From: Alphaproteobacteria bacterium
Lineage (GTDB): Bacteria > Pseudomonadota > Alphaproteobacteria > VGDZ01
Reading direction: 5' to 3'
Assembly: GCA_016869515.1 (NCBI GenBank)
Contig: VGDZ01000017.1
Coordinates: 1 to 48,021, forward strand
DNA length: 48,021 nucleotides
The notes beneath the pieces were generated by a model. That model was not told the origin of the DNA, did no database searches, and saw nothing but the letters and a program-made list of their open reading frames with translations. Shown piece after piece: positions 542 to 13,098 of this stretch. Numbering within the stretch: position 1 is the first letter of the stretch; every line of letters starts with the position of its first letter. A program made the position numbers and the translations under genes.

Positions 542-1207
542 CTATCTCCCGGGCCAGAGCGCGGCCGTGAACGCCGCCAGTTTAGCCGGGTCGAGCCGGC
601 CCTCGCTACGCAGGCCCGAACACAGATCGACCCCGAACGGCCGCACAGTCGCCACCGCCTCGGCGACGTTGCCGGGGTTGAGGCCGCCGGCCAGGAACAC
701 CGGCTTTTCGACCCTAGCGACGATGTCGCGGCTGATGCGCCAATCGTGCACCCGGCCGGTGCCGCCCAGTTCGGCGAAGGGCGCGCCCGGCCGCCCCGAG
801 TCGAGCAACAGCGCATCGGCCAGGCGCGCGTAGTCGGTCGCCAGCGCCACGGCCTCGGCGCCCTGGACGTGGATCACCTGCACCAATCGGGTTGTCGGCA
901 GCAGGCGGCGCAGCCGCGGATATTGGCTCGGGTCGAGATGGTCGACGATCTGCAGGGTGTTGGCGCCGGTGATGCGGACATGTTCGGCCAAACCTTCGGC
1001 TTCCTGTCGCGAACTAAGCAGGAAGGTGGCGATCGGCGGCGGCACCGCGGCGACGATATCGGCAATGCGGTCGTCGGCGATCGGTCCCGGCCCCGAGGGC
1101 ATGGCGCCGACCAGGCCGAGCGCGTCCGCGCCCTGTCCGATCGCCAGCGCCGCTTCCGCGCGCGAGGCGATGCAGCACACCTTGAGCCGCGGACGGCCGC
1201 CCTGCAC
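542..1207 (-). CDS. TrpF-like (phosphoribosylanthranilate isomerase family) protein
   Basis: A 221-residue beta/alpha-barrel protein. TrpF hallmarks are LKVCC near residue 8 (usual form KICG, catalytic Cys = Cys11), ALLLDSG with the catalytic Asp, GGTGRVHDW, and LAGGLNPGNV at the phosphate site. True TrpF would isomerise N-(5-phosphoribosyl)anthranilate in tryptophan synthesis. Here the Gly after the Cys is replaced by Cys, the first loop reads MPSGPGPI, and no other trp gene is nearby. The start is a GTG at 1207, chosen because it lies just before the first beta strand and just after the kinase stop at 1219-1221. It may be a paralog with another substrate serving the adjacent deaminase-like gene. 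Confidence 0.8.
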   Translation of the reverse strand: MQGGRPRLKVCCIASRAEAALAIGQGADALGLVGAMPSGPGPIADDRIADIVAAVPPPIATFLLSSRQEAEGLAEHVRITGANTLQIVDHLDPSQYPRLRRLLPTTRLVQVIHVQGAEAVALATDYARLADALLLDSGRPGAPFAELGGTGRVHDWRISRDIVARVEKPVFLAGGLNPGNVAEAVATVRPFGVDLCSGLRSEGRLDPAKLAAFTAALWPGR

Positions 1208-1218
1208 GATCGGGAATC

Positions 1219-4059
1219 TTAGAGGCGCCCGAGCGAGCCGAGCAGTTCGCCCAGCGCCGCTTCGGCCGCTGGGTCGAGCGGCCGATCGGGCGGAGCCTTG
1301 TCCGCCGGCGCCGACGTCTCGCCCACCGGTCGGCCGAGCAGTCGCGCCATGGCTGCCAGCAGTTCCGCCGGATCGATCGGCTTGGCGACATGCTCGTCCA
1401 TCCCTGCCGCCAGATAGGCCGCCTTCTGCTCCATCATGGCGTTGGCGGTCAGCGCGATTATGGGCAGCCGCGCCATGTCGCCGCCCATGGCGCGGATCGC
1501 CTGGGTGGCGGTCGGCCCGTCCATCTCCGGCATCTGCACGTCCATCAGCACGACATCGTAGCGCGCCTGGCGCAGACGTTCGACCGCCGCGCGGCCGTTG
1601 TCGACGATGTCGAGGCGGTGGCCCAGCGGTTCCAGCATCGCCCGCAGCACCATCTGGTTGATCGGATTGTCCTCGGCGGCGAGGATGTCGAGCGGACCTA
1701 GAGCAGGTGCGGCCATCGGCGGCGCCAGCTCGGCGTGCGAGACCACCAGCGGCAGTTCGAACCAGAACGTGCTGCCCTGGCCGAGCCGGCTTTCGACGCC
1801 GATATCGCCGCCCATCAGCAGCGCAAGCTGCTTGGCGATGGCCAGGCCCAACCCGGTGCCGCCATAGCGCCGCGTGGTCGAGACATCGGCCTGGCTGAAG
1901 CGGTCGAACACGCGCTCGATCTTGTCCGGGGCGATGCCGATGCCGCTGTCCTCGACCGCAATGCGCATCCGGCCATGATCGGCCACGGCATCCGGCTTCC
2001 ATGTCGCGCGCACGGTGACGTGACCCCCTGTCGGCGTGAACTTGACCGCATTGCCCAGCAGATTGGTCAGCACTTGGCGGATGCGATGGCTGTCGCCGAT
2101 CGCCTGCTTGGGGAGGTCGGGCGCGAGATCGCATGCGAGCCGCAATCCGCCGTCCTCGGCCGCCGGGCGATACAGCGCCACGACCGATTCGATATCGTGG
2201 GCCGGCGCAAACGGGGCGACTTCAATCTCGACCTTGCCGGCCTCGAGCTTGGAGATGTCGAGCACGTCGTTGACGATGGTTTGCAGCGAGCGCCCGGATT
2301 CGAGAATGGTCTCGACCTGCACCCTCTGCTCGGCCGACAGCGATCCGCCGCGCAGGACCGTCGCCATCCCCAGCACGCCGTTCAGGGGCGTGCGGATTTC
2401 GTGGCTCATGGTGGCAAGAAAATCGGACTTGGCGCGGCTGGCGGATTCGGCCGCGACGCGGGCACGCTCGATGTCGGTGACGTCGAGCACGGCGATGATC
2501 GCCTTGACACCTTTCCCCGCCGCATCGCGCTCGATTTCATAAAAGTCGCGCACGAACCGAATCTCGCCATTGGACAGCAGCAGACGAAAGGCCCGCTCGC
2601 CGCGAACCGGACCGTCCGGCGTCAACCGATTCAACTTGTGCCGGTCATCGGGATGCAGCCGCGACAGCGGCAAGTCGTAGCTGATGATAGTTCCCTTGGG
2701 GAAATCGAAGATTTCGTAGACTTGGTCGGACCACACCCTACGGCCGCTGTCGAAGTCGATCGACGCCCAACCCAGCTTGGCGACACGTTGGGCAACATCG
2801 AGAACGGTATTGCGCTCGGCCAGTTCCATTTCGGCCCGCTTGCGGTCGGTGATCAGGAAGCGAATGCTGGTATAGCCGGCGATCTCGCCCCGCTGGTCGA
2901 CGATCGGTACGATTGTGCTGTCGACCCAATAAAATTCGCCCTGCTTGGTACGGTTGCGGATTTCCGCCCGCCAGGTCTTGCCGGCGCGGATGTTGCGCCA
3001 CATGTCAGCGAAGAATTCCTTGGAATGCAGGCCCGAATTGATCATGCGGTGGTCCTGTCCGATCAATTCGGCGCGCGGATAGCCGCTGAGGGCGACGAAT
3101 TTGTCGTTGGCATAGACGATGCGGCCCTGGCGGTCGGTCATCGACACGATCGCCGCCTCGTCCAGCGCGCGTTGTCGGTTTTGCAAGGCGGCGGCGGTCC
3201 GCTCCATCTCCCGCGTGTGGCGATAGGTAAGTAGGAAAATGACGCCGACGATCGCGAACACGAGTCCGAACGCCCCCGCCGCGACCAGATTGATCCGCGC
3301 CAGGGGCCGGACGTATTCGGCGACGACGGCGGCATCGGGAACCAATCGCAGCATCCAGTCGCGGTCGGCGACTTTCAACAAATGGCCGGCTTGGTAGTCG
3401 GCGGCGGCGGGACCGGCATTGGGATCGACCGTCGCGCTCGTTCCGCCCGATTCCTCGATCACGACGCCATAGCGCCGGACCAAGTCGCTCGCCAAAAGCG
3501 GCCGGACCAGATCGATCAGATCGATGGCGAAAACCAGGGCCCCGGCTTCGTAGTCGGCCAGCGTCAGCGGCACGGCGACTTCGAATCCGGCCCGGCCGTC
3601 GGCCAGCGACCGGATGGGTCCGGCGGCGGGCCGATTGGCGGCGAGCGCGGACTCGACCGCCAGCGAAGCCGCCGGGCCGGGCGCCCGCTCCGCGATCCGG
3701 GGATCGGCGGCGCGCGCGCTTTCGAACCGGCGTACCGTGCCGTCGGCGTCGACTTCGGTCACCGCGTACAACCCCGCCATGCTGGCGAGATAGGACCGGG
3801 CGTCGCTGCGCCACTCTTCGTCGGCATCGAGCGCCGCGGCGGCGGCGTTGCGGCGCGCGGCCATGCGTTCGAAGGCGAGAATGTCGTTGCGGATGGCGGC
3901 GTCGATGCGCTCGGCGGCGGTCTCGGCGGTTTCGCGGACGATGGCGCGGATCAGGCCGTCGCTTTCGACGTCGACGGTGCGCCACATATAGGCGATCGTA
4001 CCGGCCAGCAGCAGGGCCAGCCCGACGACGGCCGGAAACAGGCCCAGGATTCGGTTCAT
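1219..4059 (-). CDS. Hybrid sensor histidine kinase with receiver domain
   Basis: A 946-residue inner-membrane sensor. Residues about 4-26 and 256-282 are membrane segments flanking a periplasmic domain of roughly 230 residues (CACHE/CHASE-like). Two PAS domains follow (about 297-410, and 415-535 with LHPDD and a PAC-like end). The dimerisation/phospho-acceptor helix carries [11 protein letters not shown] (His553). The ATPase domain has [10 protein letters not shown] (N box), VEDSGIGI (G1) and GGTGLGLAI (G2). The C-terminal receiver has EDNPIN and [11 protein letters not shown] with phospho-acceptor Asp840. No HPt domain or partner regulator is visible, so the phosphorelay must continue elsewhere. 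Its position downstream of the TRAP/amidase genes suggests, but does not prove, sensing of the same ligand. Confidence 0.93.
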
Positions 4060-4349: not shown

Positions 4350-5687
4350 TTAGGCCAAATCCAGCCGGGCAAGCCAGCCCGCTATGCGCAACAACCTGGC
4401 ATCGTTGCCCGGCGCCCCCACCAGTTGGACGCCGACCGGCAAACCGTTCGAATCCGCGAGCAAAGGTAGGCTCAGGCAGGGCAGGCCGCACAGCGTCCAC
4501 GGCCGGCAATAGTCCCATTCCGAGGCCTCGGGCTCGCCGGTGGGCGCGGGCCCCGGCACGGCCGGGGTCAGGATCGCGTCATAGGCGAACAAGGTCTGGT
4601 CCAGCATTTCGGTCAGGCCCGCGACCGAGGCCGCGGCGTGGGCGTAGTCGAAGGCCAGGTGGCTGCGGCCGCGTTCGATCAGCGCCTGCAGGGCGGGGCT
4701 GAGGCCGTCGCGGCGCTCGGCATATTCGATCGCCAGCGCCAGCGCGGCATCGGTCTCGATCAGGCGGCGATGCCAGGCGACGGCATCGGCGCAACGCTCG
4801 GGCAGGTTCAGGGTCTCGATTCGCGGTTCGCCCAGCGCTTCGACCAACTCGGCAAAAGCGTCGCGGGTCTCGGCCGGAGCTCGGTCCCAACCGGCGGGCG
4901 GGACAAAACACAGCCGCGGTTCGACCGGCGGTTCGGCCGCGGCGATTTCGACCAGCGGCGGCGCGGCGCTGGCGCGGGCATCGGCATCGCCGGAATCGGG
5001 TCCGTAGAGACATCGCGCCGCTAGCGCCAGATCCTCGATCGATCGCGCGAACACGCCCGGCTGATCCAGCAACGCCGACAGCCGCAGCATGCCGCTGCGG
5101 GCGATCGCGCCGCGGCTGGGCTTGAATCCCAGCACGCCACAATAGGAAGCGCTGGCGACGATGCCGGCGCTGTGTTGATTGCCCAGCGCCACCGGCACCA
5201 TGCCCGCGGCCACCGCCGCCGCGGCGCCGCCGCAGGTCGATCCGGCGATGCGCTTGGGATCGAGCGGATTGCGCGTGCGCGGGGCGCGGCCGATGCCCAG
5301 TTCGGCGGTCTCGGTCTTGCCCAGGATGACCGCGCCCGCCGCGCGCAGCCGCGCCACCGCCGCCGCATCCCGCCGTGGCGTGCGGCCGGCATGAAGCGGC
5401 GATCCGTCCTGGGTCGGCATGTCGGCGGTATCGAACAGATCGGAGACCGCGACCGGCACGCCGTGCAGCGGGCCTTGCGGACGGCCGGCGCGATGGATTT
5501 CGGCCGCCAGCTCGGCCTGGGCGCGAGCGCGCTCGGGATCGAGGAAGGCCCACACGCCGAGCGACGGTTCCAGCTCGACGGCGCGGCCGAGGCAGGCCGC
5601 GGTCGGTTCGCGCGCGTCCAGCGCGCCCGCGCGGATCGCCGCCGCCGTCGCGCTTGCCCCAGCCGGATCGCGCGCCGCCTCGGCCAT
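4350..5687 (-). CDS. Amidase-signature family protein with a degenerate catalytic triad
   Basis: A 445-residue protein with the amidase-signature layout: HGVPVAVSDLFDT, catalytic Lys in VILGKTETAELG (Lys124), and the Gly-rich loop starting AGSTCGG. In active members the loop reads GGSSGG and the nucleophile lies in GTDTGGS. Here the cis-Ser is Thr151 and the equivalent stretch is GNQHSAG, so the nucleophile position is Gly175 (a Ser lies two residues earlier, Ser173). The fold is clear, but hydrolysis of amides by the usual mechanism is doubtful. The ATG at 5687 is 2 nt after the dctM stop, so it is translated with the TRAP operon. It might act on, or merely bind, the imported amide-like substrate. 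Confidence 0.85.
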   Translation of the reverse strand: MAEAARDPAGASATAAAIRAGALDAREPTAACLGRAVELEPSLGVWAFLDPERARAQAELAAEIHRAGRPQGPLHGVPVAVSDLFDTADMPTQDGSPLHAGRTPRRDAAAVARLRAAGAVILGKTETAELGIGRAPRTRNPLDPKRIAGSTCGGAAAAVAAGMVPVALGNQHSAGIVASASYCGVLGFKPSRGAIARSGMLRLSALLDQPGVFARSIEDLALAARCLYGPDSGDADARASAAPPLVEIAAAEPPVEPRLCFVPPAGWDRAPAETRDAFAELVEALGEPRIETLNLPERCADAVAWHRRLIETDAALALAIEYAERRDGLSPALQALIERGRSHLAFDYAHAAASVAGLTEMLDQTLFAYDAILTPAVPGPAPTGEPEASEWDYCRPWTLCGLPCLSLPLLADSNGLPVGVQLVGAPGNDARLLRIAGWLARLDLA

Positions 5688-5689
5688 CC

Positions 5690-7045
5690 CTATCTCACGT
5701 CGTAGAGATAGCTCGGCAACCCGGTGGCAAGCTCGGGGAAGATGTAGACGATCAACATCGCCAGGAAGACCAGGAACAGGAACGGCATGCAGCCCGAGAA
5801 GATGTCGGTCAGCTTGACGTGCGGCGGCGCCACGCCCTTGAGGTAGAACGCCGCCATCGCCATCGGCGGCGAATTGAACGAGGTCTGGATGTTGAGCGCG
5901 ATCAGGATGCCGAAAAAGATCGGATCGATCCCGAACTTGGGCAAGAGCGGCAGGAAGATCGGCACGAAGATGATGCAAATCTCGCTCCATTCCAGCGGCC
6001 AGCCCAAGAGGAAGATGATGACCTGGGTCAGGATCAGGAATTCGAGCGCGCTCATGTTGAGGCTGAGGATGAACTGCTCGACCGCGGCCTGGCCGCCGTA
6101 GAGCGCGAACACCGAGGAGAAGGTCCACGAGCCGACGAACAGCCAGCACACCATGGCCGAGGTACGCGCCGTCAGATAAACCGAATCCTTGACCGATTCG
6201 TAACTCAGTTTGCGATAGGCCGCCGCCAGCACCATGGCGCCGATGGCGCCGATCGCCGCCGCTTCGGACGGCGTCGCCAGGCCGAAGATGATCGCCCCCA
6301 GCACGCAGATGATCAAGGCCGCCAGCGGCAGGAACGAGGTCAGCAACTCCCACATCACTTGGCTGGTCGGAACATCGGTCTCGGATTTCGGCAGCTTGGG
6401 CGCCAGCTTGGGGTTGAGCGAGGTGACGACGACGACATAGACGATGTAGAGCCCGGCCAGCAGGAAGCCCGGGATCAGGGCGCCGGCATAGAGCTTGACC
6501 GCCGACACGCCGGCGACCGCGGCGTAGACGATCAAAAGGATCGAGGGCGGAATCAGAATGCCGAGGCAGCCGCCGGCGCAGACCACGCCCGAGGCCAGCT
6601 TGACGTCGTAGCCCGCGCGCAGCATGGCCGGGAACGCCAGCAGCCCCATCAGCGTCACCACCGCGCCGACGATGCCGGTGGCGGTGGCGAACAAGGCGCA
6701 GGTCACCAACGTCGCCACCGCCAACGAACCCGGCAGGTTGCGGGCCGCGATCTGGATCGAATGGAACAGCCGATCGAGGATATTGGCGCGTTCGACGATG
6801 TAGCCCATGAACAGGAATAGGGGTATCGCCGTCAGCACGTCGCTCGACGTCACCTCGAAGGTCTTCTGGATCATCAGATTGAAGACCCGGTTGTCGAACA
6901 CGTTCTCCAACTGGGTCGGGCCGGCGAAATACCAGTAGCCGAAGGTCACGCCCATCGCCAGCAAGGTGAAGGCGATGGGATAGCCCAGCATCACCGCGAA
7001 AATGAACAGCGTCAGCATCAAGACGCCGATTTGGGGATCGGTCAT
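5690..7045 (-). CDS. dctM: TRAP transporter large permease subunit (DctM type)
   Basis: A 451-residue, very hydrophobic protein with about 12 membrane segments. Motifs typical of the DctM/DedA-like large TRAP subunit include PLFLFMGYIVERA early on, GILIPPSILLIVYA mid-protein, and LNIQTSFNSPPMAMAAFYLKG near the end. It forms the Na+-coupled channel that moves the ligand delivered by DctP. It begins 3 nt after dctQ ends and is followed 2 nt later by the amidase-like gene, giving the operon order dctP-dctQ-dctM-amidase-like. Confidence 0.95.
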   Translation of the reverse strand: MTDPQIGVLMLTLFIFAVMLGYPIAFTLLAMGVTFGYWYFAGPTQLENVFDNRVFNLMIQKTFEVTSSDVLTAIPLFLFMGYIVERANILDRLFHSIQIAARNLPGSLAVATLVTCALFATATGIVGAVVTLMGLLAFPAMLRAGYDVKLASGVVCAGGCLGILIPPSILLIVYAAVAGVSAVKLYAGALIPGFLLAGLYIVYVVVVTSLNPKLAPKLPKSETDVPTSQVMWELLTSFLPLAALIICVLGAIIFGLATPSEAAAIGAIGAMVLAAAYRKLSYESVKDSVYLTARTSAMVCWLFVGSWTFSSVFALYGGQAAVEQFILSLNMSALEFLILTQVIIFLLGWPLEWSEICIIFVPIFLPLLPKFGIDPIFFGILIALNIQTSFNSPPMAMAAFYLKGVAPPHVKLTDIFSGCMPFLFLVFLAMLIVYIFPELATGLPSYLYDVR

Positions 7046-7048
7046 GAC

Positions 7049-7648
7049 TCAGTGTCCCTTGGCCGGTGCGTCGCCCGGGGCGGCCATGGCCTTCTGTTGC
7101 TGGAGGATCAGGACTTCGGTCTCCTCGACGTCCTGGACGCGCGGCGGCCATTCGCCGTCGCGGATGCAAAGGATGCAGCGTAGCACCTCGGCGATGCCTT
7201 GGATGAACAGCACCACGCCGGTCAGCGGGATCAGCATCTTGAGCGGGAACACCGGAATGCCGGCCGGGCTGAAGATGCTGAGTTCCTTGAACATGAACGA
7301 CATGCGGGCGAAGTTCCAACCCGACCAGATGAACGCCAGCACCGCCGGAAAATAGAACAGGATGTGCAGCGTCAGATCCATGATCGCCTGGGTGCGCGGC
7401 CGCAACAGCCGGTAGACCACGTCGGCCCGGACCTGGCCGTTGCGCGACAGCGCGTAGGCCCCGGCCATCATGAACAGGGCGCCATAGCTGATGTAGCTGA
7501 CGTCGAACGCCCAGGTGGTGGGCTTGTTCAGCACGTAGCGGACGAACACCTCGTAGCCGACGCTGAAGGTCAGCACCATGATCATCCAGCCGAAACATTT
7601 GCCGATCCAGGTGCTGAGCAGATCGATCAGCTGCACCACGCGAAGCAT
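7049..7648 (-). CDS. dctQ: TRAP transporter small permease subunit (DctQ type)
   Basis: A 199-residue protein with four membrane segments (about residues 15-37, 52-70, 88-110 and 132-160), as expected for DctQ. Features include VFVRYVLNKPTTWA after helix 1 and a hydrophilic C-terminal tail (EETEVLILQQQKAMAAPGD) longer than in many relatives. The ATG at 7648 has a good ribosome site (AAGGAAAT). A GC-rich stem-loop lies between it and dctP, which may reduce its expression relative to the binding protein. Confidence 0.93.
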   Translation of the reverse strand: MLRVVQLIDLLSTWIGKCFGWMIMVLTFSVGYEVFVRYVLNKPTTWAFDVSYISYGALFMMAGAYALSRNGQVRADVVYRLLRPRTQAIMDLTLHILFYFPAVLAFIWSGWNFARMSFMFKELSIFSPAGIPVFPLKMLIPLTGVVLFIQGIAEVLRCILCIRDGEWPPRVQDVEETEVLILQQQKAMAAPGDAPAKGH

Positions 7649-7727: not shown

Positions 7728-8867
7728 CTAGAGATCGAGCTTGCCGAAATGATGCTCGTAGGCGGTGCGGTAGTCGGCGGCGTTGAACATCTCGTAATAG
7801 GTGACGCGCTTGGTCCAGGCCTTTTGCGAGTCCATCACCTTCTTCATGAAGGGATCCGCGCCCAATTGCGTGATGAGACCGTCCCAGGCCTTGATCTGGG
7901 TCTCGAACACGTCCTTCGGGCAGCGCAGGACGCTGACCCTCTCCTTGTCCTTGAGGTCCTGCAAATCCCGCGAATAGATGTCCTGGGCCTTCCAGAAATT
8001 GGCCGAGGACGCCGCCTCGGCGGCGTATTGCAGGATCGCCTTGTGCTCGGCCGGCAGGCTGTTGAACTTGGTCTTGTTGAACATGATCTCGAAGTACTCG
8101 GTCGCCTGGTGATAGCTGCCCATGACGTAGTTCTTGGCGACGTTGTGGGCGCCGAAGCGACGGTCCGAGGTCGGGTTGTTGAACTCGAAGGCGTCGATCA
8201 CGCCGCGCTCCATCGCCGGCACGATCTCGCCGCCCGGCAGCTGCGCCACCGCCAGGCCCATCGCCTGCATCAGGTCCGCCGCCAAACCGACCGTGCGGTA
8301 TTTGAGGCCGCGCAGGTCGGCCATGCTCTTGACCGGCTTCTTGAACCAGCCCAGCGGCTGGGTCGGCATCGGCATGGCGAAGAAGCTGACGATGTTGAGC
8401 TTGAGGATGTTGTCGAGCAGCTCGGTGAACAGTTCCTTGCCGCCGCCATTGTAGATCCAGCCCAAGCCGGCATGGGCATCGAAGCCGAACACCGGACCGG
8501 TGCCGAACAGCGATGCCGCCTTGTGCTTGCCGTACCAGTAGACGGTGACGGTGTGGGCGGCATCCAGCACGCCGGCATGCACCGCGTCCTGGACGCTGAA
8601 GGGATGCACCACCGCGCCGCCGACCAGGTAGTCGATCTTGAGCCGGCCGCCGGCCATGTCGTTGACGCGTTTGGCGTAGTCCTGCGCCATTTCGCTGAAG
8701 ATGTCGGACGCAGTCCACGAGCCCTGCATCTTGAGGGTTACGGTCTGGGCGCGGCTGACTTGCGGGAAGGCCAGCGTGCCGGCGGCGGCACCGATGCCGG
8801 CCACGCCTGCGCCGCGCAGGAAGCGACGGCGGCTGGAGGTCTTGGTGTCTTTATCGGTATTGGGCAT
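7728..8867 (-). CDS. dctP: TRAP transporter substrate-binding protein (DctP type), Tat-exported
   Basis: A 379-residue periplasmic binding protein. Its N-terminus carries a twin-arginine signal (SSRRRFLRGAGVAGIG, cleavage near VSRAQ). The mature part has DctP features: GSWTASDIFSEMAQDYAKRV, GGGKELFTELLDNI, and the GLKYRTVGLAADLMQAMG hinge region with the Arg that usually binds a ligand carboxylate. The sequence resembles the mannitol/chloroaromatic or generic 2-oxoacid-type TRAP binding proteins. The ligand cannot be named. It is first in its operon, and an AT-rich divergent intergenic region lies upstream. Confidence 0.93.
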   Translation of the reverse strand: MPNTDKDTKTSSRRRFLRGAGVAGIGAAAGTLAFPQVSRAQTVTLKMQGSWTASDIFSEMAQDYAKRVNDMAGGRLKIDYLVGGAVVHPFSVQDAVHAGVLDAAHTVTVYWYGKHKAASLFGTGPVFGFDAHAGLGWIYNGGGKELFTELLDNILKLNIVSFFAMPMPTQPLGWFKKPVKSMADLRGLKYRTVGLAADLMQAMGLAVAQLPGGEIVPAMERGVIDAFEFNNPTSDRRFGAHNVAKNYVMGSYHQATEYFEIMFNKTKFNSLPAEHKAILQYAAEAASSANFWKAQDIYSRDLQDLKDKERVSVLRCPKDVFETQIKAWDGLITQLGADPFMKKVMDSQKAWTKRVTYYEMFNAADYRTAYEHHFGKLDL

Positions 8868-8955: not shown

Positions 8956-9085
8956 AACTAAAGCATAACCGCCTTTGACCGGCCAGCAGGAAATTCGCGC
9001 CATCGACGCCAGCCGGTTCGCGCATCGGTTTTGGCAAGCCGGCCGTCGTTTGATACCTTGCACAGCCGGAACCAAGAGGTCTGTC

Positions 9086-10405
9086 ATGCGTCCTGCCGTC
9101 ATCGCGATCTGCGCCGTCCTGCCCATGGCCGCCCTGGCTCAGGGGCTCGAGCCCCGGGTGACCATCGTCACCTCCTTTCCCAAGGACCTGACCCAGCCCT
9201 ACGCCCAAGCTTTCGAAAAGGCCCATCCCGGCACCAAGGTCGAGGTCCAGAATCGGAATACCGCCGCCGCGGTGGCCTTCATCCGCGAGACCCAGTCCAG
9301 CCCGCCCGATTTGTTCTGGGCATCGGCGCCCGATGCCTTCGAAGTGCTGAAGAAGAACCGGCTGCTGACGGCGTACAAGCCCAAATCCGAAGGCATCCCG
9401 GCGCAGGTCGGCAGCTATCCGATCCACGACCCGGCCGGCTTCTACATGGGCTTCGCCGCCTCGGGCTACGGCATCATGTTCAACACGCGTTATCTCGCCG
9501 CCAACAAGCTGGCCGCGCCCAAGCAATGGGACGACCTGAAGAAGCCGGCCTATTTCGGCCATGTCGGCATTTCGGCGCCCTCGCGTTCGGGCACCACCCA
9601 TCTCACGGTCGAGACCATCCTGCAGGGCGAGGGCTGGGCCAAGGGCTGGGCGACGCTGCTTGAGATCGGCGGCAACCTGGCCGCCGTGTCCGACCGCAGC
9701 TTCGGCGTGCCCGATGCGGTCAATTCCGGCCAGTACGGCGTCGGCATCGTCATCGACTTCTTCGCGCTGTCGGCCAAGGCCTCGGGCTTTCCGGTCGACT
9801 TCGTCTATCCCGAATTGACCACCATCGTTCCGGCCAATATCGGCATCGTCGCCAACGCCAAGAACCCGAACGCGGCCGCGGCCTTCGTCGAGTTCCTCTT
9901 GTCGGAAGTCGGGCAGGAGATCCTGCTCGATCCCAAGATCCGGCGGCTGCCGGTGCGGCCGACGACCTATGCCAAGGCGCCGGCCGACTATCCCAATCCG
10001 TTCAAGGACCGGAGCCTGGGGGCGCGGGTCAAGTTCGACGCCGATCTGTCCGAGGCGCGCTACGAGCTGGTGAACTCGCTCTACGACCGCATTGTCACCT
10101 TCCGCCTCAAGGAGTTGACCGAAGCCTGGAAGGCGATCCACGCCGCCGAGACCAGGCTGGCCGCCAAGCCCAACGCCGAAGCGCGGGCGCTGCTGACCGA
10201 AGCCCGCGCCAAGGTCACGGCCGTGCCGATCGGCGAGACCGAGGCGCGCGATCCCGCCATCGCCGGCGCCTTCCAGGAAAAGCGGAAGGACAAGCCGGTT
10301 CCCGTGCGCCAGGCCGAATACGAGGAGCGCTGGGATGCGCACGCCAAGCGCGCCTATGCCGAGGCCAAGACCCTGGCCGACAAGGCGGCGCAAGCGGCGC
10401 GCTAG
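9086..10405 (+). CDS. ABC transporter extracellular solute-binding protein (Fe3+/phosphonate-type)
   Basis: A 439-residue exported protein. A short Sec signal (MRPAVIAICAVLPMAALAQG) precedes a type-II periplasmic binding fold: VTIVTSFPKDLTQPYAQAFEKA, PDLFWASAPDAFEVLKK, GYGIMFNTRYLAANKL and VPANIGIVANAKNPNAA. These match the FbpA/PotD-like family linked with two-domain permeases. After the usual end (about residue 300) it has an unusual 130-residue extension, rich in Ala, Glu and Lys and probably helical. The ATG at 9086 was chosen over in-frame upstream codons because it starts the signal peptide and has AGAGGT 6 nt upstream. The ligand is unknown; iron, 2-aminoethylphosphonate or an organic anion are options. 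Confidence 0.88.
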   Translation: MRPAVIAICAVLPMAALAQGLEPRVTIVTSFPKDLTQPYAQAFEKAHPGTKVEVQNRNTAAAVAFIRETQSSPPDLFWASAPDAFEVLKKNRLLTAYKPKSEGIPAQVGSYPIHDPAGFYMGFAASGYGIMFNTRYLAANKLAAPKQWDDLKKPAYFGHVGISAPSRSGTTHLTVETILQGEGWAKGWATLLEIGGNLAAVSDRSFGVPDAVNSGQYGVGIVIDFFALSAKASGFPVDFVYPELTTIVPANIGIVANAKNPNAAAAFVEFLLSEVGQEILLDPKIRRLPVRPTTYAKAPADYPNPFKDRSLGARVKFDADLSEARYELVNSLYDRIVTFRLKELTEAWKAIHAAETRLAAKPNAEARALLTEARAKVTAVPIGETEARDPAIAGAFQEKRKDKPVPVRQAEYEERWDAHAKRAYAEAKTLADKAAQAAR

Positions 10406-12120
10406 GTGACGGCGGCGGTCGCGAGCGGGGCCGCGGGCACGCTCGGTCGCCGCGCCAGCCCGGGCCAGATCGCGGTCGGGCTGGCGGTGGCGCTGTTCCT
10501 CGCGCTGTTCCTGGTGCTGCCGGTGGCGCGGGTGATGGTGGCGGCGATCGAGGGGCCCGATGGCTACACGCTCGATCATTTCGGCGATTTCGCCCGCACC
10601 GCCCTGTTCCGCGAAGCCTTCGCCAATTCGATCTACGTCGCCTTCATGGCGGTGGTGCTGGCGACGCTGATCGCCGTGCCGTTGGCCTATCTTCTGGCGC
10701 GGTTCCGCTTCCGGGGCGCTGCGCTGATCCAGACCCTGGGCGTGATCCCGCTGGTGATGCCGCCCTTCGTCGGCGCGGTGGCGATGCAGTTGGTGTTCGG
10801 CCGCAACGGCAGCGTCAATTTGCTGCTCAACGAGTGGTTCGGTTTCCGCATTCCGTTCATGGAGGGCCTCAACGGCGTGATCTTCGTCGAGGGCCTGCAC
10901 TATTTTCCGTTCATCCTGCTGAATTTGTCGGCGGCGCTGTCGAACATCGACGCCTCGATGGAAGAGGCGGCGCAGAACCTGGGCGCGTCGGGCTGGACGC
11001 TGGCGCGGCGCATCGTCCTGCCGCTGGCGCTGCCGGGCTATGTCGCCGGCGCGGCGCTGGTGTTCGTCAAGGTGTTCGACGATCTCGGCACGCCGCTCCT
11101 GCTCAACGCCACCAACCTGCTGGCGCCACAGGCCTATCTGCGCATCACCTCGATCGGGCTCGACGATCCGCTCGGCTACGTCATCGCCACGGTGATGGTG
11201 GCGTTTTCGTTGGCCGCGGTCGCCGCTTCGGCGTTGGTGCTGCGCGGCCGCGACTTCTCCACCGTCCAGCGCGGCGGCGGCGGCCTCGGCCAGCGCGAGC
11301 TTACGGCCGGAAGGCGGATCGCGGCCTGGGTCTTCATCTCGCTCGTGCTGCTGCTGGTGCTGTCGCCGCATATCGGCCTGCTGCTGCTGTCGCTGGGTAC
11401 GGTATGGTCGTTCAGCGTGCTGCCCGATGCCTTCACCCTGGCGCATTACGGCGCGGTGTTCGGGCAATCCGCGCATTATCTCGGCAACACCGTGCTGTAC
11501 TGCGCGCTGGCCGCGGCATTGGACGTGGTGCTGGGCACGGCGATCGCGTACTTGGTGCTGCGCACCGATCTGCCGGGACGCCGTTGGCTCGACGCCGTGG
11601 CCATGATCCCGATCGCCGTACCGGGGGTGGTGCTGGGCATCGGCATGCTGCGGACCTTTCACGGCATCAACCTGCCCGGAAGCGATCAGCCCTTGGCCAC
11701 GTTCTGGGGCATGCTGATCGTCGCCTATGCCGTCCGTCGCCTGCCCTATGCCTTGCGCGCCTGTACCGCCGCGCTGCAGCAGCTCCACATCAGCCTGGAA
11801 GAGGCGGCCGAATCGCTCGGCGCGGGCAAACTCGCGACCTTGCGGCGGATCGTGGTGCCGCTGATGGCGGGGGGCATCCTGGCCGGTTTCGTCACCAGCT
11901 TCGCCACCGCCGCGGTCGAGCTGTCCGAAACCCTGCTCTTGGTGACGCGCGAGGCCGATGCCCCGGCCAGCTACGGCATCTATGTCTACATGCAATCTCC
12001 GGCCGGGCGCGGTCCCGGCGCGGCCTTGGGCGTGATCGCCGTGGTCGTGGTCGCGGTGGCGACCTATTTCTCGCACCGCCTGGCCGAGATCGACCGGGCC
12101 AAGCGCGGAAAGCTGGGACG

Positions 12121-12124
<4 letters not shown>
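10406..12124 (+). CDS. ABC transporter permease, fused two-domain (FbpB/PhnV-like)
   Basis: A 572-residue integral membrane protein made of two BPD-transporter domains of about six helices each. Each half has its EAA loop: EEAAQNLGASGWTLARRI (about residue 190) and EEAAESLGAGKLATLRRI (about residue 467). These loops dock on the ATPase. The GTG start at 10406 directly abuts the stop of the binding-protein gene, and its own stop overlaps the ATPase start (ATGA), so the three genes form a tightly coupled operon. Confidence 0.92.

Positions 12125-13095
<971 letters not shown>

Positions 13096-13098
<3 letters not shown>

Follow-up and report, generated by a model that had tools for sequence, protein, structure and literature searches.

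The TRAP operon and its amidase gene

The window analysed here is a stretch of 48,021 nucleotides from a member of the Alphaproteobacteria (contig VGDZ01000017.1, positions 1 to 48,021). It carries a TRAP transporter operon with the gene order DctP-DctQ-DctM-amidase on the minus strand:

7728..8867, minus strand: DctP, TRAP solute receptor, TakP-like, with a match to a Tat signal model (PF03480, E 5.1e-31; TIGR01409, 21.1 bits against a cut-off of 16.7; TakP structure 2hzk, E 2.1e-40)
7049..7648, minus strand: DctQ, TRAP small permease (PF04290, E 3e-22)
5690..7045, minus strand: DctM, TRAP large permease (PF06808, E 2.8e-78)
4350..5687, minus strand: amidase-signature protein without catalytic triad, 445 aa
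4123..4323, minus strand: hydrophobic small protein of 66 aa downstream of the amidase, with a homologue at the same place in loci L186 and L187

The amidase gene follows the end of DctM after a gap of two bases. Its 445 codons contain neither stop nor frameshift, and the preliminary description of a gene intact at full length thus holds. The product matched Pfam Amidase (PF01425) with 245 bits where 27 are required (E 2e-72), whereas with the NCBIfam amidase models (25 of 26 models) each score lay below the model's own cut-off, the best being 210.6 where 506 is needed. An AlphaFold2 model, for which 26 relatives were used besides the window protein, predicted the amidase-signature fold confidently (pLDDT 90.6, pTM 0.93). 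The best Foldseek match of this model was 6c6g (E 5.1e-35); with VIA-align it was malonamidase E2 (MAE2; PDB 1ock and mutants), the likeness extending over the whole fold (Z 54.4, rmsd 1.9 over 407 residues). Both sequence profile and fold place the protein in the amidase-signature superfamily. A comparison with a plasmid collection gave no match at E 1e-60.

The operon recurs in the class. DctP, DctQ and DctM all adjoin the amidase gene in 18 of 20 context loci, as they do in L186 and L187; the remaining two (L117, L122) show just a piece of DctM at a contig end. Among the 18 the amidase lies on the same strand in 15 and on the opposite strand in L118, L123 and L126; DctP of L109 is cut by the contig end, and the TRAP genes of L114 are more distant (28-37% identical). 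At 31 loci from public genomes, several with short flanks, the window-type TRAP was absent at E 1e-6. By its position beside a conserved DctPQM the window gene belongs to what we define here as the DctPQM-linked amidase family. The close tie to a TRAP operon that had been proposed for it is supported by the two-base gap as well as by this recurrence. A tblastn search with the 66-aa protein (E 0.01) gave no match in the other 20 context loci, some of which stop close to the amidase gene. A promoter scan of the operon gave one candidate where chance predicts 1.0, and there were 7 terminator-like matches, most of them inside genes, against 3.2 in shuffled sequences.

TakP is described as binding 2-oxo acids together with sodium (PMC1839085). 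The window DctP is TakP-like and retains Arg, Gln and Glu in the stretches that align with the pocket; it differs from TakP in having Phe at the position of TakP Trp215 and in reading MPMPTQ in place of GNTGVQ. The pocket stretches of TakP are thus partly kept, and because of these differences the solute may differ. Three stretches of the pocket region, PMPTQPLGWF, KYRTVGL and FEFNNPTSD, were nearly invariant in all 15 DctP sequences compared, KYRTVGL fully so, and their conservation was alike beside triad-bearing and triad-less amidases.

Several features surround the operon. By eye, an ORF at 1219-4059 (minus strand) looks like a hybrid histidine kinase. Close after it, in another frame within the ORF at 542-2134 (minus strand), lies a stretch resembling phosphoribosylanthranilate isomerase. 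A divergent ABC uptake operon at 8975-13098 (plus strand) has an FbpABC-like look, with a binding protein, a fused permease and an ATPase. The whole genome (G000, 3.7 Mb) is rich in TRAP transporters, with 27 DctM-family matches, two of which are apparently parts of one gene.

Loss of the catalytic residues

The active-site columns were read off an alignment with MAE2. We take its cis-serine and nucleophile to be Ser131 and Ser155, a numbering that the mutant PDB entries bear out, and the cis-Ser column was placed by the 24-residue spacing between them. The following codons of the window gene are concerned:

5442..5444, minus strand: Ser82, catalytic-Lys column by alignment to MAE2 Lys62 (Lys in 60 of 61 relatives and 115 of 117 family genes)
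5280..5297, minus strand: residues 131-136 of the rewritten loop ELGIGxAP (rare residues 131, 132, 133, 135 and 136 common to L185, see below)
5235..5237, minus strand: Thr151, cis-Ser column (Ser in 61 of 61 relatives and 116 of 117 family genes)
5163..5165, minus strand: Gly175, nucleophile column (Ser in 61 of 61 relatives and 116 of 117 family genes)

The preliminary description had reported Gly175 in place of the nucleophile and Thr151 in place of the cis-serine, and both assignments agree with the MAE2 alignment. It had also considered the catalytic lysine to be kept as Lys124. This proved wrong: Lys124 lies in ILGKTE and is the non-catalytic lysine of the GKT motif, while MAE2 Lys62, which is replaced by Ala in the mutant structure 1o9n (K62A), aligns with Ser82, where the window protein reads PVAVSD and active members read PVGVKD. 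The window protein therefore has neither the Ser nucleophile nor the cis-Ser nor the catalytic Lys of active amidase-signature enzymes. Judged from the alignment, the loss of the triad is confirmed, and with all three positions changed it goes further than originally stated. MAE2 Arg158 is replaced as well (R178A in the numbering of the window protein), and further changes, in the same numbering, are G174A, T172H, G150S and S155A.

In another amidase-signature enzyme, with a Ser146-Ser170-Lys71 triad, an inactive control is described as made by replacing Ser146 (PMC11741061). To judge by the spacing this residue would be the cis-Ser, and the control as described supports inactivity of the window protein.

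The changes are concentrated around the active site. At 109 columns, each conserved in at least 90% of the 61 relatives, the window protein deviated 25 times against 0-12 times in the relatives, where 12 belonged to a protein cut at the locus edge and the next value was 9. Columns 78-86 and 147-179, which include 27 of the conserved ones, held thirteen of the 25 deviations (p 0.001 by Fisher's test, with bounds chosen after seeing the data), and outside this core 12 of 82 conserved columns were changed.

A second triad-less gene

The searches covered 1524 genomes as counted, many of them drawn repeatedly; class searches used 384-389 genomes sampled evenly from a larger group, and the window genome was the sole member of its order among the genomes searched. 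They yielded 117 distinct family sequences besides the window gene (tblastn, E 1e-40 or better), of which 115 have Lys/Ser/Ser, one has Ala/Ser/Ser and one, L185, has Ser/Gly/Gly. All 48 matches that had no locus in the first searches and were fetched on purpose (they are included in the 117) have normal triads. A narrower set of 61 relatives has the catalytic Lys in 60 and both serines in all 61. A class-wide search with L185 as query, which hit 20 of 384 genomes at E 1e-85, found no additional triad-less gene, and neither Lys nor nucleophile was lost in the covering tblastn pieces, some of them partial, of the 31 public-genome loci and the other amidases of the window genome.

Two further deviations were seen. 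The Ala/Ser/Ser gene (L102, the same gene as L209; L127 in genome G204, amidase at L127:3528) is DctPQM-linked and keeps both serines, with the catalytic Lys changed to Ala (PVAVADVID); it may represent a separate step on the way to inactivity. L043 (genome G036), a more distantly related gene of the amidase-signature type, keeps Lys and nucleophile and has EGSEQNGSA as its cis-Ser stretch in the tblastn alignment, which may be a quirk of alignment or sequence.

L185 comes from genome G689, which belongs to another order of the same class, and is 54-56% identical to the window protein. Its triad columns read Ser82/Gly151/Gly175. It follows DctM in an operon closely related to that of the window (DctP 84%, DctM 75%), in the same slot as the window amidase. 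The two proteins have in common 17 rare residues, found in at most three of the other 62 sequences; Ser82 and Gly175 are among them, and five lie within 131-136. At 107 conserved columns the window protein deviated at 23 and L185 at 21, both deviating at 15 (4.5 expected, p 2e-8), while the triad-intact gene of genome G687 deviated at 1. Conservation of the NQHSAG string in DctPQM-linked orthologues had been suggested as a check: the string itself is not conserved, since L185 reads SQTESG.

Close orthologues with an intact triad, according to the preliminary description, would point to a recent loss. The closest one found, L184, is sister to the triad-less pair and 54-55% identical to the window protein, from which it follows that the loss came after that split; however, the loss is common to a gene of another order and is thus not a private, recent accident.

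There are strong signs in the sequences that the two triad-less genes are of common descent. In the amidase tree (FastTree) they formed a clade with support 0.995, and the pairing persisted with 0.766 when columns 78-86 and 120-215 were left out; the G687 gene was sister to the pair with support 1.0 in both cases. Independent losses drawn together by long branches would be the rival to this shared descent, though not to the loss of catalysis. Both triad-less amidase branches are indeed long, the DctPQM tree joined L186 with L187 rather than the window with L187 (it is weakly resolved, with support 47 for the surrounding group), and L186 and L187, of G687 and G689, come from one taxonomic family. 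Set against these points are the 17 rare residues, the five at 131-136 included, and the clade that survives removal of the active-site columns, and we regard independent losses as quite improbable. One loss followed by transfer, one loss followed by differential loss of a duplicate, and parallel loss cannot be fully told apart from the sequences. A duplicate is plausible, since tandem amidases beside the same TRAP occur elsewhere: L120 and L122, the latter at a contig edge, have such tandem genes beside a TRAP operon, all with intact triads.

Evolutionary rates and constraint

The amidase has undergone rapid change that DctP, ligand-pocket stretches included, does not show. In a tree of relatives from 12 complete operons the terminal branch of the window amidase was 1.03, about 2.7 times the mean of the relatives (0.385; maximum 0.684). 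The corresponding branches (means of relatives in brackets) were 0.233 (0.168) for DctM, 0.290 (0.219) for DctQ and 0.101 (0.162) for DctP. When L186 and L187 were added, the amidase tips became 0.483 for the window and 0.64 for L187 with a shared stem of 0.27, and 0.19 for the triad-intact sister; the window tip was then just moderately above the other amidase tips (mean 0.366, maximum 0.640).

Composition has shifted as well. The content of Gly, Ala, Arg and Pro was 0.467 in the window amidase and 0.462 in L185. The other amidases of the window genome do not exceed 0.447 (15 loci, two being parts of one gene), and the amidase family has a mean of 0.378 (maximum 0.458). This is a sign of relaxed, GC-driven drift.

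The dN/dS ratios (NG86) have to be read with dS near saturation: the triad-less pair gave 0.37-0.39, while active pairs gave 0.29-0.44 and pairs of one active and one inactive gene 0.40-0.83. Neither triad-less gene has a stop or frameshift, and relative to the active sister the indels are short, three of one residue in the window protein and seven of 1-4 residues, ends included, in L185. A simulation of neutral change by substitutions alone, run to 32% nucleotide divergence at an assumed GC of 0.68, gave 5.8 stops on average and at least one in 300 of 300 runs. Intact frames together with a dN/dS of about 0.4, dS being near-saturated, suggest that the triad-less genes may have been retained under selection.

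Decay, new catalysis or a retained protein

We think it probable that the window protein is an amidase pseudoenzyme that was retained and has a non-hydrolytic role, next to a transporter that did not change. The loss of the triad, the operon and the unchanged transporter stretches can be read directly from the sequence. Its ancestor would have been a triad-bearing amidase such as normally accompanies this DctPQM system. The predicted model suggests that the fold was kept while the Ser-cisSer-Lys chemistry was lost, so the protein presumably hydrolyses no amides. It may serve a purpose other than hydrolysis, most likely to hold a ligand (the TRAP solute or a derivative) in the rewritten pocket; alternatively it could be a binding partner of other proteins and in this way tune transport or a different enzyme. 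A relative in another order with the same loss, when nearly all others are normal, argues for a kept and repurposed protein rather than junk.

Some of the evidence fits less well. Faster evolution and the composition rich in Gly, Ala, Arg and Pro are compatible with relaxed constraint, as are active-inactive dN/dS values reaching 0.83. Just two members are known, the window tip is only moderately long in the enlarged tree, and the weakly resolved DctPQM tree does not join the window with L187. Slow decay is a rival explanation, in which an unneeded amidase drifts under weak constraint and its frame is kept by the working operon or by luck; the long terminal branch, the 12 changed columns outside the core, the composition and the active-inactive dN/dS values speak for it. 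It is hard to reconcile with the absence of stops from both genes when every neutral simulation produced them, with indels that are short throughout, and with a specific new loop common to two genes whose pairwise dN/dS lies within the range of active pairs. We consider slow decay unlikely, and the earlier view that this is not simply a decayed gene is strengthened by the intact frames, the loss and loop shared with L185 and the dN/dS of about 0.4. A new active site built from other residues (Ser82, Cys152/His172, Ser173) is a further explanation, and we give it very little credence. The window protein has indeed gained Cys152, His172 and Ser173 near the old site, but in L185 positions 152, 172 and 173 are occupied by Ser, Thr and Glu (and 151 by Gly), so that just Ser82 is common to both; in addition, the old site has lost Arg178 and Gly174. 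Ser173, suggested in the preliminary description, and Cys152/His172 were rejected as new nucleophiles on this ground.

A retained pseudoenzyme would have counterparts in the same superfamily. Toc64 and its homologue in the plant mitochondrial outer membrane are amidase-signature proteins that, as summarised in a review, most probably lack enzymatic activity (PMC8393822). Tse8, an amidase-fold protein, is reported to bind GatCAB and to lack the amidase activity of GatA (PMC12283126). In both cases the comparison concerns the reported activity. They differ from the window protein in setting: Toc64 and the mitochondrial homologue are components of plant protein-import complexes and Tse8 is a secreted effector, while the window protein is bacterial and single-domain and its gene is part of a transporter operon. 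On these precedents, as reported, we class it among pseudoenzymes, as a TRAP-linked one of amidase type, rather than among amidases. Proteins with this fold that lack the usual amidase function are already known, and by analogy the TRAP-linked bacterial version would be a new variant. Our literature searches, the looser of which covered part of the matches through titles and abstract openings, found no earlier description of a TRAP-linked inactive amidase.

A more specific role is conceivable, although we hold it to be rather doubtful: in the cytoplasm the protein would act, without catalysis, as a docking subunit of the transporter or as a sensor, its old active site binding the imported solute and the binding signalling the solute's arrival to the permease or to a partner. 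If true, this would add a fourth component to some TRAP systems. More generally, the Pfam match by itself labels the window protein 'Amidase' and would mislead pathway predictions. The locus offers a clean case in which one lineage has lost the catalytic residues of an enzyme encoded in a conserved transport operon, with hardly any change in the transporter, ligand-pocket stretches included. Because triad-bearing and triad-less versions occur at the same locus in related bacteria, both the role of the pseudoenzyme and the substrate of the active enzyme can be addressed directly.
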